Part shown: one piece after another, positions 24,654 through 47,727 of the stretch
Layout of the letters: each line of letters begins with the position of its first letter
Position numbering within the stretch: the first letter of the stretch is position 1
Source of the DNA: Parcubacteria group bacterium ADurb.Bin115
GTDB taxonomy: Bacteria > Patescibacteriota > Patescibacteriia > Patescibacteriales > UBA12465
DNA length: 58,657 nt
Direction of reading: 5' to 3'
Assembly (NCBI GenBank): GCA_002070735.1
Contig: MWDX01000008.1
Location: 1-58,657 of the forward strand
Translations under genes and position numbers: made by a program
The notes under the pieces: model-generated
Database searches by the model: none
What the model was told of the DNA's origin: nothing
What the model saw: the letters and a program-made list of their open reading frames with translations, nothing else

Positions 24654-24965
24654 CTACTTAAGTTCTGAGGAATTAGAAGGAAATAATGAACCATTATTTA
24701 TAATTTGATCTTGGCTTTCAATAATCTTGTAAGTCATAATTTCGCCGTCGGCATTACGACGTAACACTTGAACTTCTTTATCGACCGGAATAAAAAGGCT
24801 GTTTTTTTCCTCTGCTGTCATTAATACCGGCGCTACCGACTGAGGCTGGACGTCGTTCAACAAAGGGGTCTGTGTTGACGGCTCATCCCGGAAAAAATAC
24901 AGTAAGACAAACACTACTATTAAACAAATAACCGCTCCGATAATTATAATACTATTTTTTTTCAT
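24654..24965 (-). CDS. Small membrane-anchored protein, unknown
   Basis: A 103-aa protein starting at the ATG at 24965. An N-terminal KKNS is followed by a transmembrane helix (about 6-25) and an external 75-residue part rich in Ser, Pro, Asn and Gln. No family recognised. A longer reading frame upstream would start inside the inserted element's left flank and is less likely. Its upstream region ends within about 60 bases of the IS110 transposase, so the insertion may have separated it from its original promoter or upstream partner. Confidence 0.6.
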   Translation of the reverse strand: MKKNSIIIIGAVICLIVVFVLLYFFRDEPSTQTPLLNDVQPQSVAPVLMTAEEKNSLFIPVDKEVQVLRRNADGEIMTYKIIESQDQIINNGSLFPSNSSELK

Positions 24966-25038
24966 AATGCTATAAATTAATATATATAAAAGTGTTAAAC
25001 TAGAAAGATAAAATGTAGCTGGAGAGGAGGTGAAAAAT

Positions 25039-26070
25039 ATGACCACTAGTTATCAAAACTATATTGGAGTTGATTTGCATAAGAAGACGGCCTATATAAC
25101 GGTAATGAACTTGACTGGTAAGATTAAGAAACAAGGGGAAATCTCCACCGATACGGATAAAGTGGCGAAGTTCTTTTCTCGCTATGCCGGCAATAATCTG
25201 GTGGCGGTAGAGTCAACGATGAATTGGCTACCCTTCTATGAGAACCTGGAATCATTGGGCTGCCAGACGGTATTGTCCAATCCCTTGGCCACGAAAGCGA
25301 TTGCTTTCTCGAAAATGAAAAACGATAAGGTGGACTCTCGAATTTTAGCTGATTTGCTTCGGACGAAGATGTTGCCCCTCGCCTATATTCAACCTAGAGA
25401 TATACGGGATCTAAAAGAACTGGTTAGACAACGGATACAATACGTGGAAATGCAAACGAGAATCAAGAACAAAATCCATTCGGTGCTGTTTAAAACTAAC
25501 TCTAAACACGAATATACTAATTTATACGGGGTAGCGGGAATGAACTGGCTCAAGGCCTTGGAACTAAGACCGATTTTTAGAGATGAGCTGAATCGATATC
25601 TTCTCACGCTGGATTATTTAGGGAAACAAATTAAGGAATTATCGGATAATATTGAAAATACGGCCAAAGCGGATTATGACTGTAAACTACTGATGACTAT
25701 TCCGGGTATTAGTTTTTTCTCGGCGCTGGTTATTAAATCAGAAATCGGAGATATATCCAGATTCTCTAGTGCTAATAAATTATGCTCCTATGCTGGTCTC
25801 ATTCCTTCGACTTACGCTTCGGCCGATAAAATCAGACACGGACGGATCACGAAACGGGGTTCAATTTGGCTCCGGAAGACATTGATTAACGCCGTTAGCT
25901 CTAACTGTCGACACGCCAACCGCTTGGCCAGCTTCTACCGAAAACTCAAGAAGAACAAGGGGACGGGGAAAGCCAAGGTGGCGACGGCCAGAAAATTATG
26001 TTCAATTATTTTTGCGATGTTAACTGACCAAACTATCTTTCGGGAATTTGCATCAGTCAAGCAACGATAG
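25039..26070 (+). CDS. IS110-family transposase (DEDD recombinase)
   Basis: A 343-aa enzyme. The N-terminal RuvC-like domain starts IGVDLHKKTAY with the first catalytic Asp. The remaining acidic residues lie near AVESTMNW and in the KMKNDKVDSRILADLL segment. The C-terminal Tnp domain has the helix-hairpin motif TIPGISFFSALVIKSEIGD and SYAGLIPS with the presumed nucleophilic serine. The family inserts by a guide-RNA-directed recombination without duplicating targets. The ATG at 25039 is preceded by GGAGAGGAGG, an unusually strong ribosome-binding site for this window; an in-frame GTG at 25030 overlaps that site and is unlikely. Intact and probably active. Confidence 0.95.
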   Translation: MTTSYQNYIGVDLHKKTAYITVMNLTGKIKKQGEISTDTDKVAKFFSRYAGNNLVAVESTMNWLPFYENLESLGCQTVLSNPLATKAIAFSKMKNDKVDSRILADLLRTKMLPLAYIQPRDIRDLKELVRQRIQYVEMQTRIKNKIHSVLFKTNSKHEYTNLYGVAGMNWLKALELRPIFRDELNRYLLTLDYLGKQIKELSDNIENTAKADYDCKLLMTIPGISFFSALVIKSEIGDISRFSSANKLCSYAGLIPSTYASADKIRHGRITKRGSIWLRKTLINAVSSNCRHANRLASFYRKLKKNKGTGKAKVATARKLCSIIFAMLTDQTIFREFASVKQR

Positions 26071-26243
26071 GATACTCTGCTTAAAGATATGATCCTTTAA
26101 GATCGTTTTCATAATTCAGAGATCCTTATCGTCTCAGCACACTTGAGCCTACTGGTAATAGAGCTCGCATAGGTAACTGATTGAAAATCGTTACGGCGAT
26201 AGTGATACTTATTAAAAGTGTCCTACCGTTGTTTGACTGATGC
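26050..26243 (+). ncRNA. Candidate guide (bridge/seek) RNA region of the IS110 element
   Basis: Positions 26050-26075 are complementary to 26218-26243 at 23 of 26 positions, and two of the three mismatches are G-U compatible. Inside are three more stems: 26065-26079 with 26117-26131 (14 pairs, two bulges), CTTAAAG/CTTTAAG (26080-26086, 26095-26101) and GTAAC.GAT/ATC.GTTAC (26173-26194). The first two pairings share 26065-26075 and exclude each other. Known IS110 elements encode a structured RNA in a non-coding end that pairs with target and donor DNA; the assignment here is inference. Downstream, 26244-26352 holds only an AT-rich spacer with a small CCCC/GGGG hairpin. Confidence 0.5.
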
Positions 26244-26352
26244 CTTAAATATGAATTGTTAATATTTTAACTGGCTCTATTATATTTCCAACCCCTATTT
26301 TATTGGGGGATCTAAAGGGCTTGCTTTAATTTATAGGTACCTTAAAAAATAA

Positions 26353-29300
26353 TTAATTAGAAGCCCCACTATTACCACCTGACATGATAATATAACACGT
26401 AACATAATTATTGACACAAGTTAGAATCTGACTACTAACATTACAACAATATTGATTGATGCCGCAGACAGTGCTATTGCTGCAACACTGCTGGGTGTCA
26501 GGGTTATAGCAATTTAAACCGGTGGTGCCACACTGCAACATCCCATTAGGACAACCGGCGGGAGTATTGGCAACACACGCGCCATCAGGCCAAACATTAG
26601 CTTCCCAATGTTGTCCATCTGGACAGACGCAAGAAGTGCTCTCACACTCATTAGTGCCGTTACAATTATAATAACCACTAGGACAACTAGTAGTGCAAGA
26701 AGTGCCGGAATTACTGTAACACTTAGACGAATATAAGCCACAGTCAAAAGAGTTTTTCGAAAAACATTGATTTCCACATTCATACTGATCAGCCCCACAA
26801 CCGTCGCAGGGTTTCTCACTTTCACAGCCCAAAGCCTCACTATCACAATCATACCAACCTGTTTCGCACTCGCAGCTATCGCCGACTGGCACCAGATGGT
26901 CGCCAGCACAAGTACAGTCTTCGAGACAATAACCACCTATTTCCCAAGGTGTAAGTTGATTATTGCGAATAATCCGCGCTTGACAAATACCATCACCGCA
27001 GTAGCCGCCACCGTTGGGGTCATCAGCGGAAAGATAAATACAATAATATGTATTCATTATCGGGTAAGGCACAGCACTGCCGAGCTTAGTAGTACAGCCA
27101 TACTGTAATGTAGGTGAGGTGCTACCAATCTGCGAACGATCTGAAATAATACCGCTATTGCCGTCGCAATCCTCATGACCATCGTTATAAAATCCTCCCC
27201 GCCCCTCTGAATTTGGAGCCTGACGCACACCATCACCACAATAATTATTGATATTAAGTAAAAATTCTCTTTCGGAAACAGCGCCAAATTCATTTTCCGC
27301 CTTAATCTTAATGGACACAGCCGACGCGGCCGTTGTCGGCGTGCCCTGCAGAGCGTAGGAGGTATTAGCAACCGCCGCCTCTGCGGCTTTAAACCAGGAA
27401 GACAATTTAGAAATAAACCGCCACAAAGAACCTCGCGATGCCTGAATACTCCCTCCGCCAACACCCCCACCGGGTTGCATCACTTCTCCAATACTTAAAC
27501 CGCTGGGCAAAGAACCGACGGCCCTATAAGTGATGGTATGATCGCCTTGTTTGCTAAATCCCAGCCGGCAAGAATAATAAGAACCAACCCTCACCGAAGA
27601 AGCACAATTGAAATCTAAAACCGGCGGATCAATCTTGATATTAATGTTTAATTGTCTGGTGGCGGTATTATTATATTTATCTTTAGCCGTAATGACGTAG
27701 ACAAAAGTAGTATCATGTGTAAATTTATTACTAGTATGAAGATTATACTTAAGGGTGTAATAAACAGTATCGCCGACCTGATGATGACTTTCCGATAAAA
27801 ATGTAGCGTTAGCCGGCGCTAATAAATCATAGGGGCCGGAATTCCAGGTCGCCTTCGTAATAGTATAAGAAATGGGCTGATCTTTATCGCTAAGACTAAA
27901 ATTAATAGTTAAAGGAATGACGGTGCTCGGATAATAATAAATATCGTCTGACTGGATTAAAGGAGCAGTATTAACAATAGTAATCGGCGTGACTGTCGAC
28001 AACACGCCGCCCTGGCCATCGGCAACCGATAAAGACAGATTATAGGTGCCAGGGTTACCGGCCGCCTGCGCATAGATTTTCTTCTGATGAGGATTAGAGG
28101 TATCAAGCATGATGGGAGCGACATTATTCTGGCCATTATTGCGCCAATTAGTCCAAACAGTGGCCGCTGTATTAATAGACCAATCCATCGGATTACCATC
28201 AGGGTCGATTACTTTAATAAATCCATTAAATTCCTGATCTTGCTGTCCTTGCAGGTTGGTCGCGATAAGAACCGGCGCCAAATTATTGCCAGAACCAATA
28301 TAACCGGCGCCACTAGAAACACAACCTGATTCCGCCAGTTGCCCCTCGGTGGTGTTGTAGCCCAAACTCTTTGTTTCCATGGCCGCACAAAGAGTATAAT
28401 TCGAACCATTACTATCCCCGGAATAAACAAAAGCATAGCTGCCGCCTGGTAATTCCAAATTATTATCCTGAGGGTTTGGATCAGCAAAGGCTTTGGTTTC
28501 CTCATTCCAACAGGTTTCACTATTATAACCAGCGCAAGGACCAAGCTTATTAATAGGATCAATTAATGACTGGGGCATTCCTAATTGGGGTAAAAAGAGA
28601 GATTGCCAACTAGGCCAAACGGAAATACTGCTTAAAGGCAAATAGGTGCCAGCGCCAAGAATCGGATACTTGTTATTAATTTTTTTAAAAGCGGACAGAG
28701 ATTCACGCAAATCACCAAGCATACCCAAACGCCTCACATCTCTAGCCACCTTGGCGCGCAAACTATCACAATATAATCCTTGAGTACAGTCGGCGTCGGT
28801 ATAACAAACAGAGTTTTCTTGAGGTCGACAACGTCCGGGCGCTTCGGTTTTACCAAAACAATATTGTCCCTGACTACAATCACTGTCATTTTCACAAAGC
28901 AAAGTGGAAATATAACAATTACCGGCCGTAGTTAAATTGCTGTTAAAGCGCCAGTGGCTAATAATTTGACCCAACACATCCACTGTTTTTAGCTGGGGAT
29001 TCTGATTATAAGAAATCAAATAGATATTGGTATAGATGTTTTTAGTAGCCAAATCAACATTCGCGGCGTTTACATAAACAGTGCGACCGTCGCGGACAGC
29101 ATCATAACCATCAACCAATAAAGCCTGCGGAGAACCAGAAAATCCCTGACTCTTATACCAACGAGCGGCGCTATAATGATTAGGGTTAGGTAATACTCTC
29201 ACCGCAATAACGTCACTGTCCTTGTCATCAATAAAAGTATTATTAATAGTATTATTAATAGTCTGTCCCCCCGGCTCGTCACCGGTAGATTTAGCAGCTT

Positions 29301-44763: not shown

Positions 44764-47727
44764 CTATCTCTGACAAAATTCGCAAATATTCTTAAAATCA
44801 CAATGTTTACACATTTCTGAGGGTTGCGGCGGAAACTTTCGTGCCTTAATCGCTTCAATTTGGAGTTTTATTTCTTCTCTTAATTTTTCCTTTTCCGCCT
44901 CTTTGGGAAGAAAAGAGAGAGAACTGCCGTCTTCAACATAATAATATCTTAGAGACAAAACTTTAATTTGTAAAACCTCCTCCAAAAACAAGTGATATAA
45001 AATCAACTGACGCTTGCTATCCCAATCTAATTTATTCTTAGGGCTACCCGTCTTATAATCAATAATTTCAACCCCGCCATCAAGTTTATCGACGCGATCA
45101 ATCGTCCCCTTTAAAGTTTCACCGCCTATTTTAAAAGCAAAGCTTTTTTCCAAAAAAAGAGGAGAAGGGACGGTGGCGTCGCAAAAAACATTATAAAAAG
45201 CGCGAATCGCTTGCTTGGCCTTCTTCTTATATTCTTCGCGTTGAGCGGCGCTTTCATAACCATCTTCCAACCAATAATCGGCTAAAATTTTCTCCAAACG
45301 TTTTAAACTTAAAATATCGGGGTCAATATTAGTCTCGCCAAAAAGACTGACCTGAGGACCGTTACTTAAAGGCTTTAAAAAATCATAAAAAACATTATGC
45401 ATCACCCGGCCAAAAATCAAGCTGGGTTTATCCGCCGGCGCCGGTACCTTCAAGATAAAAGCAAATTTATATTGCAAAGGACAAGTTTTATAAGCGGCTA
45501 ATTGGGAAAAAGAGAAGCGTTTGGGCAGGTTCTCCGGCTTTAATTCCGTTGATATTGAAGTCTTGCCGCTCAGCGATAAATCTCGCCATAATTCATTTTT
45601 ATTCCCTCCCCGTAGAACTGGAATCGGAACTAAGCCGGCCTCCTCGATAAATTGCGAAACTTTCTTTGCTCTGACGCCACCATAATCTTTAGCGCTGCTT
45701 AGATATAATTCCTGCTTAGCTCTGGTCATAGCCACATAAAAAAGCCTTCTCTCTTCTTCTATATGAGCATCTTTGCTGTCGGTTAAAGGTTCTTTAATGA
45801 TTGCCTCGGGCAAAGCGATTTTGTCGTTGCGATTGATGGTCGGAAATTTCTTATCCGCCAGATTAACCACGAAGACATAAGGGAATTCTAAACCTTTAGC
45901 GGCATGAACCGTCATTACTTTTACCGTGTCTGCATCGTCAAAATCTAGACGCAAAGCGCCACTTTCACCTGATTCAAGCTCCAATTCCATCGCGGCCATA
46001 AAATCAGGCAAACGAGTTTCCGGGGCATTTTCCTCAAAACGCTTAATTTTCTGATAAAACTGATTGAGATAGGAAAAAATTTCCTGGTCACGGTCAATAT
46101 CTAAGCCCTTTACCAACCCAGACTCTTCAATAAATTTTAAAAAGATTAAGCTGGGCAGAGAGCTACTAATCAGCGCCGAATGTTTTTCAATTAGTTTCAT
46201 TAAAAATTTAATCGGCGGCACCGCTTCCGGGCTAAGATCGCGAACCGCTTCAACTTTCTGCAAAGTCTCGAATAAAGACCAGGCCTTACGGCGGGCAAAG
46301 CGATTAAGATTAATGATATCGGCATGAGAAATTTTAAAAGGCTCTAAATTTAAAACCCTAAATAAAGCGGATGACTCATGATAATTATCCAAAAGACGCA
46401 AATACGCCAAGCAGTCGAGAATAATCGGCTTATAATACAAACCGCGCAAAGACACAAACTGATTAGGAATGCCGCGGCGGCTCAATTCTTTCACAAACAA
46501 ATCAGCGGTATCATTAGAACGGGCCAAAATGGCAAAATCGGACCAAGCCGCGCCGGCATTAGTTTTTTCCTGACGTTGATAAATAGCTAATATCCTTTCG
46601 GCGACGAAAGACAGTTCCTCTTCTTGGCTTTCCAAAAAATAAAAAGCCGGTGGCAATCCTTTTAAGGCCTCCTTGCCCTGAGCACGCAAAGATTTATTTA
46701 TCGCCAACCTGTCTTCCAGGCGATTAGGGTCGTTATGGCGAATAAAATTATGGGAAATATCAAGGATATCTTGGCGAGAACGATAATTGTCGGTCAAAAT
46801 AATTTCTACGGCCTCCGGAAAATCATCTTTAAATTGCATAATATTAGCTAAAGAAGCGCCGCGAAAACGATAAATTGCCTGGTCATCGTCACCTACTGCC
46901 ATCAGATTATTCGCGGGGGCAGCCAGAAGTTTTACTAATTCATATTGTGCCCAATTTGTGTCTTGAAACTCATCCACCATGATATAAGTGAATTGCCGGC
47001 GGTAATATTTCAATATGTTCGGACGCTGATGGAATAATTTAAGTGTATAAAGTATCAAATCTCCAAAATCTAAGCAGCTATTATCGAGCAACAATTTATT
47101 ATAGGTCTGATAAGCACCCGCTAGTTCACGATAACGTCCAGCCTCCATGCTAAGATCATCATCCTCAGCGCCCTTTCCGGGAGCGCCAGAAAGAGCCTGA
47201 TCGCCGGCTGCCAGCAAACCGTTGGCATACTCTAAATATTCATCAGGAGTAATATTTTCATCTTTTAAACGAGAAAAATGCTTTAATAATTCGGTAATAA
47301 ATTTAGTGGGATTGCCCAAAGGACGATAATAGTCCAAAGCAAATAATGCAAAATTTTGCTTTAACATCATCCATTGCTCGGTGGCGCTTAAAACACGAAA
47401 ATCTGAAGGCAAACCAATGTCTAAAGCGTGTTCTCTTAAAATTCTTTCACAAAAGCCATGGAAAGTGTTAATCCATAAATCTAGATAACCATAAGGGAGA
47501 ATACGGTCAGCGCGCTCTTCCATTTCTTGAGCCGCTTTCTCGGTGAAAGTAAGGAGCAACACCCGATCGCTATCTAATTTGTCATTCAATAAAATATCGG
47601 CGAGACGATTTACTAAAACTGTAGTCTTACCAGTACCAGCGCCAGCTACCACCAATAAAGGACCCTGGCGATGTTTTATCGCTCGTTCCTGTTCGCTATT
47701 GGGTTTTGATTCAAAATAAGTGGTCAT
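44764..47727 (-). CDS. UvrD/PcrA-like helicase fused to a RecB-type iron-sulfur nuclease
   Basis: A 987-aa superfamily 1A helicase. Motif I is AGAGTGKTT (about 29-37), motif II is MVDEFQDTNW, motif III GDDDQAIYRFRGA, motif V VMTVHAAKGLEFPYVF and motif VI VAMTRAK. The C-terminal 240 residues are a PD-(D/E)XK nuclease with Asp877, Asp890 and Lys892 (EIIDYKTG). Four cysteines, Cys749 and C973xxC976x5C982 (plus Cys985), are placed as in AddB/Cas4-like iron-sulfur nucleases. It probably resects or repairs double-strand breaks, perhaps replacing RecBCD/AddAB. Five bases downstream of the M16 peptidase gene. Confidence 0.9.
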   Translation of the reverse strand: MTTYFESKPNSEQERAIKHRQGPLLVVAGAGTGKTTVLVNRLADILLNDKLDSDRVLLLTFTEKAAQEMEERADRILPYGYLDLWINTFHGFCERILREHALDIGLPSDFRVLSATEQWMMLKQNFALFALDYYRPLGNPTKFITELLKHFSRLKDENITPDEYLEYANGLLAAGDQALSGAPGKGAEDDDLSMEAGRYRELAGAYQTYNKLLLDNSCLDFGDLILYTLKLFHQRPNILKYYRRQFTYIMVDEFQDTNWAQYELVKLLAAPANNLMAVGDDDQAIYRFRGASLANIMQFKDDFPEAVEIILTDNYRSRQDILDISHNFIRHNDPNRLEDRLAINKSLRAQGKEALKGLPPAFYFLESQEEELSFVAERILAIYQRQEKTNAGAAWSDFAILARSNDTADLFVKELSRRGIPNQFVSLRGLYYKPIILDCLAYLRLLDNYHESSALFRVLNLEPFKISHADIINLNRFARRKAWSLFETLQKVEAVRDLSPEAVPPIKFLMKLIEKHSALISSSLPSLIFLKFIEESGLVKGLDIDRDQEIFSYLNQFYQKIKRFEENAPETRLPDFMAAMELELESGESGALRLDFDDADTVKVMTVHAAKGLEFPYVFVVNLADKKFPTINRNDKIALPEAIIKEPLTDSKDAHIEEERRLFYVAMTRAKQELYLSSAKDYGGVRAKKVSQFIEEAGLVPIPVLRGGNKNELWRDLSLSGKTSISTELKPENLPKRFSFSQLAAYKTCPLQYKFAFILKVPAPADKPSLIFGRVMHNVFYDFLKPLSNGPQVSLFGETNIDPDILSLKRLEKILADYWLEDGYESAAQREEYKKKAKQAIRAFYNVFCDATVPSPLFLEKSFAFKIGGETLKGTIDRVDKLDGGVEIIDYKTGSPKNKLDWDSKRQLILYHLFLEEVLQIKVLSLRYYYVEDGSSLSFLPKEAEKEKLREEIKLQIEAIKARKFPPQPSEMCKHCDFKNICEFCQR

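Follow-up and report, generated by a model that had tools for sequence, protein, structure and literature searches.

We identify positions 26050-26243 of the window (the whole 58,657-nt stretch analysed here) as a candidate guide RNA, a seekRNA or bridge RNA, of an IS1111-type IS110 element, a reading to which we give a probability of about 0.93. The preliminary description of this DNA had suggested such an RNA from position and folding, and the element ends, the covariation of the fold and the matches between loops and DNA now lend it strong support. RNA-guided elements of the IS1111 kind are already known, and the present one is a well-supported new member; noteworthy in it are the overlap of the RNA with the transposase gene (tnp) and the location of the targets, mostly at start codons. 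The RNA-guided IS1111 kind is thereby extended to Patescibacteria-type (CPR) genomes, in the form of compact elements in which guide RNA and transposase gene overlap. The features of the element are collected in Table 1.

Table 1. Features of the element and of its predicted guide RNA. Positions are those of the window; in sequences a slash marks the element boundary; LE and RE are the left and right ends.
Feature	Positions	Strand	Basis or remark
IS1111-type element	24967-26337	+	1371 bp without core; LE and RE boundaries conserved in relatives, orthologous empty site (G384)
Left core TA	24965-24966	+	CATA/ATG in 12/12 readable flanks; within TATG start codon context of adjoining minus-strand gene
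Right core TA	26338-26339	+	TTTATAGG/TA unchanged in 5 close relatives
Left subterminal inverted repeat CTATAAATTAA	24970-24980	+	11 bp; direct reading, conserved
Right subterminal inverted repeat TTAATTTATAG	26326-26336	+	11 bp; direct reading, conserved
-10-like TATAAA, predicted circle-junction promoter	24971-24976	+	joining the ends via one TA puts it 17 bp from the -35-like hexamer of the RE
-35-like TTGCTT, predicted circle-junction promoter	26321-26326	+	TTG unchanged in 5 relatives; TTGACT in L004
IS110-family transposase, 343 aa, DEDD plus Ser domain	25039-26070	+	NF033542 254 bits, PF01548, PF02371
P1 stem, 5' strand	26050-26065	+	77/80 cells paired; 6 two-sided columns (hand count), 5/15 pairs in covariation test
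P1 stem, 3' strand	26228-26243	+	as for P1 5' strand
Inner long arm, 5' strand (alternative pairing), holds stop codon	26066-26075	+	partner strand 26218-26227; sequence invariant, two-sided changes absent
Inner long arm, 3' strand; also P4 3' strand	26218-26227	+	constrained folds and hand comparison
P2 target-loop stem, 5' strand	26065-26079	+	all cells paired (100%), a single two-sided change
P2 target-loop stem, 3' strand	26117-26131	+	covariation test
P2a apical hairpin, target loop	26091-26104	+	two two-sided changes
P3 hairpin, separating the donor guides	26144-26167	+	one two-sided change
P4 3' hairpin (CGATAG... with ...CTACC)	26197-26227	+	minimum free energy in L005 and L006; upper part co-changes in relatives
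Target guide, 5' strand	26080-26089	+	weak match to right flank (reverse complement)
Target guide, 3' strand TTTTCATA	26106-26113	+	equals left flank 24959-24966 up to the core
Donor guide, left end (CAGCACA)	26135-26141	+	compared by eye with LE reverse complement AGCATTA
Donor guide, right end CATAGGTA	26168-26175	+	equals RE end ATAGG-TA

The transposase places the element in the IS110 family, with a DEDD/RuvC domain and a Transposase_20 domain carrying the putative catalytic Ser. Residues D12, E58, D96, D99 and S261 are invariant in six relatives and are, as assigned by motif, the putative catalytic residues. The GL-P----S(T)G motif that IS1111 members have in the C-terminal domain can be recognized as GLIPSTYASA, whose SA ending is a slight departure from published IS1111 members, in which it ends in SG or TG and occasionally in TA (PMC11187229); L005, L006 and L009 have SG. 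Just one IS110-family transposase gene was found in the 758-kb genome. Relatives at 63-75% identity occur in Falkowbacteria, Moraniibacteriota and Doudnabacteria, a second and more distant subgroup occurs in other genomes (L009 at 41%), and the plasmid IS110/IS1111 members that we compared share about 23-40% identity. Protein scans of viral contigs returned nothing close to this transposase, and the 10 matches from a stem-motif scan of viral contigs all lacked a neighbouring transposase in tblastn.

Alignment of the relatives sets the ends of the element at ...CA-TA/ATGCTATAAATTAA on the left and TTAATTTATAGG/TA-... on the right. The reconstructed empty site, TTAATTATTTT-TTAAGGT-ATGAAAAA, has the same length as the uninterrupted ortholog TTAATTATTTT-CATATAT-ATGAAAAA of a congeneric genome (G384), and this exact equality indicates that insertion was scarless around the TA, that is, without duplication at a short core, as in the IS110 family. 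Two further traits are those of the IS1111 group: the inverted repeats are subterminal and, with 11 bp at each end, within its range of 7-17 bp, and the non-coding sequence amounts to 267 nt 3' of the tnp stop (26071-26337) versus 72 nt 5' of the start (24967-25038). The preliminary description had named two findings that would speak against a guide RNA, namely ends that exclude 26071-26243 and a lack of covariation among related elements. Neither was encountered: the ends, fixed by means of other copies and the empty site, enclose the flagged region, and the relatives do covary.

The long arm that had been described at the end of tnp, including the stop codon and pairing with 26218-26243, is present. 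In its 26-nt register 25 of 26 positions are paired, two of them as G-U wobbles, with one A-C mismatch, and the pairing of 26050-26076 with 26217-26243 (27 nt) is 89% Watson-Crick. The long arm does not arise by chance: within 25950-26500 the top ungapped inverted repeat scores 18, while 300 dinucleotide shuffles average 8.9 and reach 13 at most. The 221-nt RNA folds with -69.3 kcal/mol (z -5.6, 0/200 shuffles). The competing stem likewise exists, as 26064-26079 with 26117-26132, and has 26065-26075 in common with the long arm. Only about 10 bp (26066-26075 with 26218-26227) are mutually exclusive; with its outer 15-16 bp the long arm can form alongside the second stem.

Covariation was assessed on five close RNA sequences only. 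Across these, P1 (outer), P2, P2a and P3 together have 98.4% of their cells paired and two-sided changes at 9 pairs, compared with 2.5 in shuffles (0/500), a signal that is lost when the alignment is slid by 1 to 3 columns. The RNA thus has a conserved fold with covariation, as bridge RNAs and seekRNAs do. P1 (outer) covaries despite the coding role of its 5' strand: 26050-26067, within P1, are the last six sense codons of tnp, which read A-S-V-K-Q-R here and V-P-V-K-E-R in L005. An Rfam search with the guide RNA returned no matching family.

The loops of this fold match the DNA on which the element would act. The preliminary description had proposed comparing them with the flanks; the left flank is matched by TTTTCATA, the right flank only weakly, and both element ends are matched as well. 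The guide for the right flank lies 5' of that for the left flank, which is the IS1111 order. Moreover, the guides change together with the DNA across the relatives, visibly so for those that match the ends and more weakly for those that match the target. In 9/9 elements the right-end guide, which reads ATAGGTA, ATCGATA or ATCGGTA, agrees with the right end of the same element (permutation p 0.0017), and by eye the left-end guide AGCA(C/T) tracks the left end, with AGC/GCT here and ATC/GAT in L072. For the right target, a guide matches its own flank at 5.11 of 8 positions versus 4.01 for the flanks of others, most clearly at the core-aligned offset; the permutation p is 0.0025 overall (range 0.003-0.03) and 10/120 and 3/24 within subgroups, for a match that is short. 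The left target guide hardly varies, so that its comparison with the flank (p 0.06-0.11) amounts to essentially a single independent change; in L006, guide and flank both read GTGTA. All these p values apply to guide positions placed by eye before permutation and to relatives that are not independent of each other.

The position of the RNA relative to the gene deserves attention. The stop codon (26068-26070) lies in P2 and falls inside the RNA in 5/5 close relatives. The overlap goes further in four distant relatives, whose stop is placed within the target hairpin, either in its apical loop (L071, L072, L009) or in its guide (L045); for L009 the stop was located from the sequence, the fold computed being left out as it covers a stretch upstream of the guide. 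Part of the transposase C-terminus of these distant relatives is therefore encoded by guide RNA sequence. Translation to the end of tnp and processing to a guide RNA are hardly compatible in one transcript at one time, and competition of translation with guide-RNA formation is plausible from this layout. The overlap could represent either regulation or compaction. An active feedback, in which a ribosome terminating at 26068-26070 would hold the guide unfolded, high translation would thereby curb guide formation and transposase bound to the RNA would stop translation, is a guess that we hold to be doubtful. The retention of the stop codon within the RNA in all five close relatives, and within the target hairpin or guide in all four distant ones, speaks for it, as does the precedent of TnpB, whose guide is made from its own mRNA (PMC10278001). 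Compaction by itself, however, would produce the same overlap. Nor is the overlap general: in IS5075, the known IS1111 member that we compared in this respect (plasmid copy L074), a target-like stretch recognized by eye lies about 100 nt downstream of the stop, without overlapping tnp.

The preliminary description had further proposed that the region carries two long pairings that exclude each other. In terms of base pairing and energy this holds: forbidding one or the other gives -68.4 and -68.1 kcal/mol, only 0.3 kcal/mol apart in this element. The ten exclusive pairs, however, are without two-sided changes while the remaining fold has them. The 5' strand of this inner arm never varies. Three relatives (L004-L006) lose a pair through changes in its 3' strand, but these changes fit hairpin P4, which was compared by hand because it is misaligned in alignment A4. 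Therefore, the most likely working fold would consist of P1 (outer), P2, P3 and P4. A switch between two folds is physically possible, but has no evolutionary support on five sequences. If functional, it would exchange P1-inner for P2-outer/P4 as a migrating four-way junction, for instance between an inactive precursor and the active guide. Besides the nearly equal energies, the retention of both CGATAG copies (the second being TGATAG in L004) and of both partner strands in the five close relatives favours such an exchange, and the exclusive alternative fold is the lower in energy in L003. L005 and L006, by contrast, energetically favour the P2/P4 fold, and distant relatives form the target hairpin without a long arm. 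We thus regard a functional switch as improbable.

The insertion sites are mostly at start codons. Among 12 readable sites, 10 lie precisely at the initiating ATG of an ORF that spans at least 100 aa; the genes, named by their protein starts, include two pth-like genes and one frr-like gene. The remaining two sites (L003 and L052, the latter in a TTCATAA repeat) are not at starts. Insertions lie mostly at start codons because the guide reads TATGAA. This is a common start-codon context in the genomes concerned and provides numerous sites at which coding sequence is spared. An evolved strategy beyond this motif, for example recognition of the translation start region, would appear attractive when the 10/12 are held against all TATGAA matches, 23% of which are starts (P about 2e-5). 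Outside coding interiors, however, 52-58% of TATGAA-type motifs are starts and P rises to 0.03-0.06, and the two exceptions also weigh against it. Given these shares, the motif together with selection against damage explains most of the start-codon siting, and we see little likelihood of an additional evolved strategy. A literature search for a statement on start codons in IS900 found none.

The most far-reaching reading would combine these ideas: the same stretch would be guide and message, a conserved strand exchange set by ribosomes at the stop codon would decide between protein and guide, and the transposon would be self-limiting and aimed at start codons. We hold this combination to be a long shot. 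Least credible of all is a mere transcription terminator or mRNA-stabilizing structure at the 3' end of tnp, since a strong fold directly at the stop codon would suit it but the internal loops match the flank and both ends and co-change with them, and the terminator was rejected for want of a T-run after the arms.

Returning to the guide RNA, the transposition cycle might proceed as follows. Excision would join the element ends into a circle, and the junction would create a promoter (predicted as TTGCTT, 17 bp, TATAAA) from which a single transcript carrying both tnp and the RNA could be made. The DEDD transposase would bind the guide RNA, whose target loop would read TTTTCA-TA plus the right flank and whose donor multiloop would read both element ends, and recombination at the TA would insert the circle without a scar. 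In the opposite sense the target loop would read TATGAA, which would place insertions mostly just 5' of start codons, with the ATG kept. Since the RNA starts inside the coding end of tnp, a transcript would probably serve in just one capacity at any one time, message or guide. The overlap makes such sharing of a transcript directly testable.

Guide RNAs of this kind have been described for the IS1111 members ISEc11, ISPa11 and ISKpn4, which have a seekRNA (Siddiquee et al., 2024, PMC11187229). A promoter forms at the circle junction in the IS1111 group (PMC11187229), the RNA resides in the right end and the donor guides lie in a multiloop (PMC11208160). The present element shares with these three members subterminal inverted repeats, a DEDD transposase some 340 aa long, a 3' non-coding region, the lack of a target duplication and an RNA in which the top-strand match is 5' of the bottom-strand match; the predicted junction promoter would be a further likeness. 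It differs from them in its distant protein, in an RNA that starts within the coding end of tnp, in a long outer stem around the target and donor loops, and in its target TATGAA, mostly at start codons. With the bridge RNA of IS621 (Durrant et al., 2024, PMC11208160) it has in common paired guides for target and donor around a dinucleotide core, whereas the IS110 group, including IS621, has a left-end RNA with reversed guide order and, in IS621, a CT core, rather than a right-end RNA and a TA core (PMC11208160). IS5075 and IS4321, of the IS1111 group, likewise have an IS110-family transposase and a downstream non-coding region, but by eye show none of the overlap between RNA and tnp seen here. 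Finally, the TnpB omegaRNA (IS200/IS605) derives from the message of the protein's own gene (PMC10278001); protein, RNA and reaction are different there, and the layout alone is alike.

Several minor observations were made along the way. A small CCCC/GGGG inverted repeat at 26290-26310 in the right end is absent from the four close relatives. Elsewhere in the window, 45688-45786 on the minus strand matches Rfam RF03531 (n00280) above the gathering score; this family is an sRNA annotated inside a helicase gene, and the match is likely conserved coding sequence. At G000:C4:6400-6476 (L002, near 1501-1577) a left end of the same element stands by itself (96% over 77 bp). It stops at the tnp start position, immediately 5' of where a peptidyl-tRNA-hydrolase-like gene has its ATG, and is probably a truncated element copy; a host repeat, considered for the 57-bp repeat in that contig, is less fitting given the CATA/ATG start boundary and the end at the tnp start. 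L045 and L046 (G735:C5 and G447:C53) are identical in element and printed flanks while their genomes are assigned to different families, which reflects either recent transfer or a mis-binned contig. In Falkowbacteria, the L003 copy sits between inverted copies of GGGACTGTCGCCGAATGC (about 1853-1871 and in the right flank past the element), perhaps an older mobile element or an intergenic repeat. Further element pieces were noted in L051, L052 and L054 (G746:C38, G170:C29 and G170:C59), two of them at contig ends, with more than one IS110 subtype per genome.
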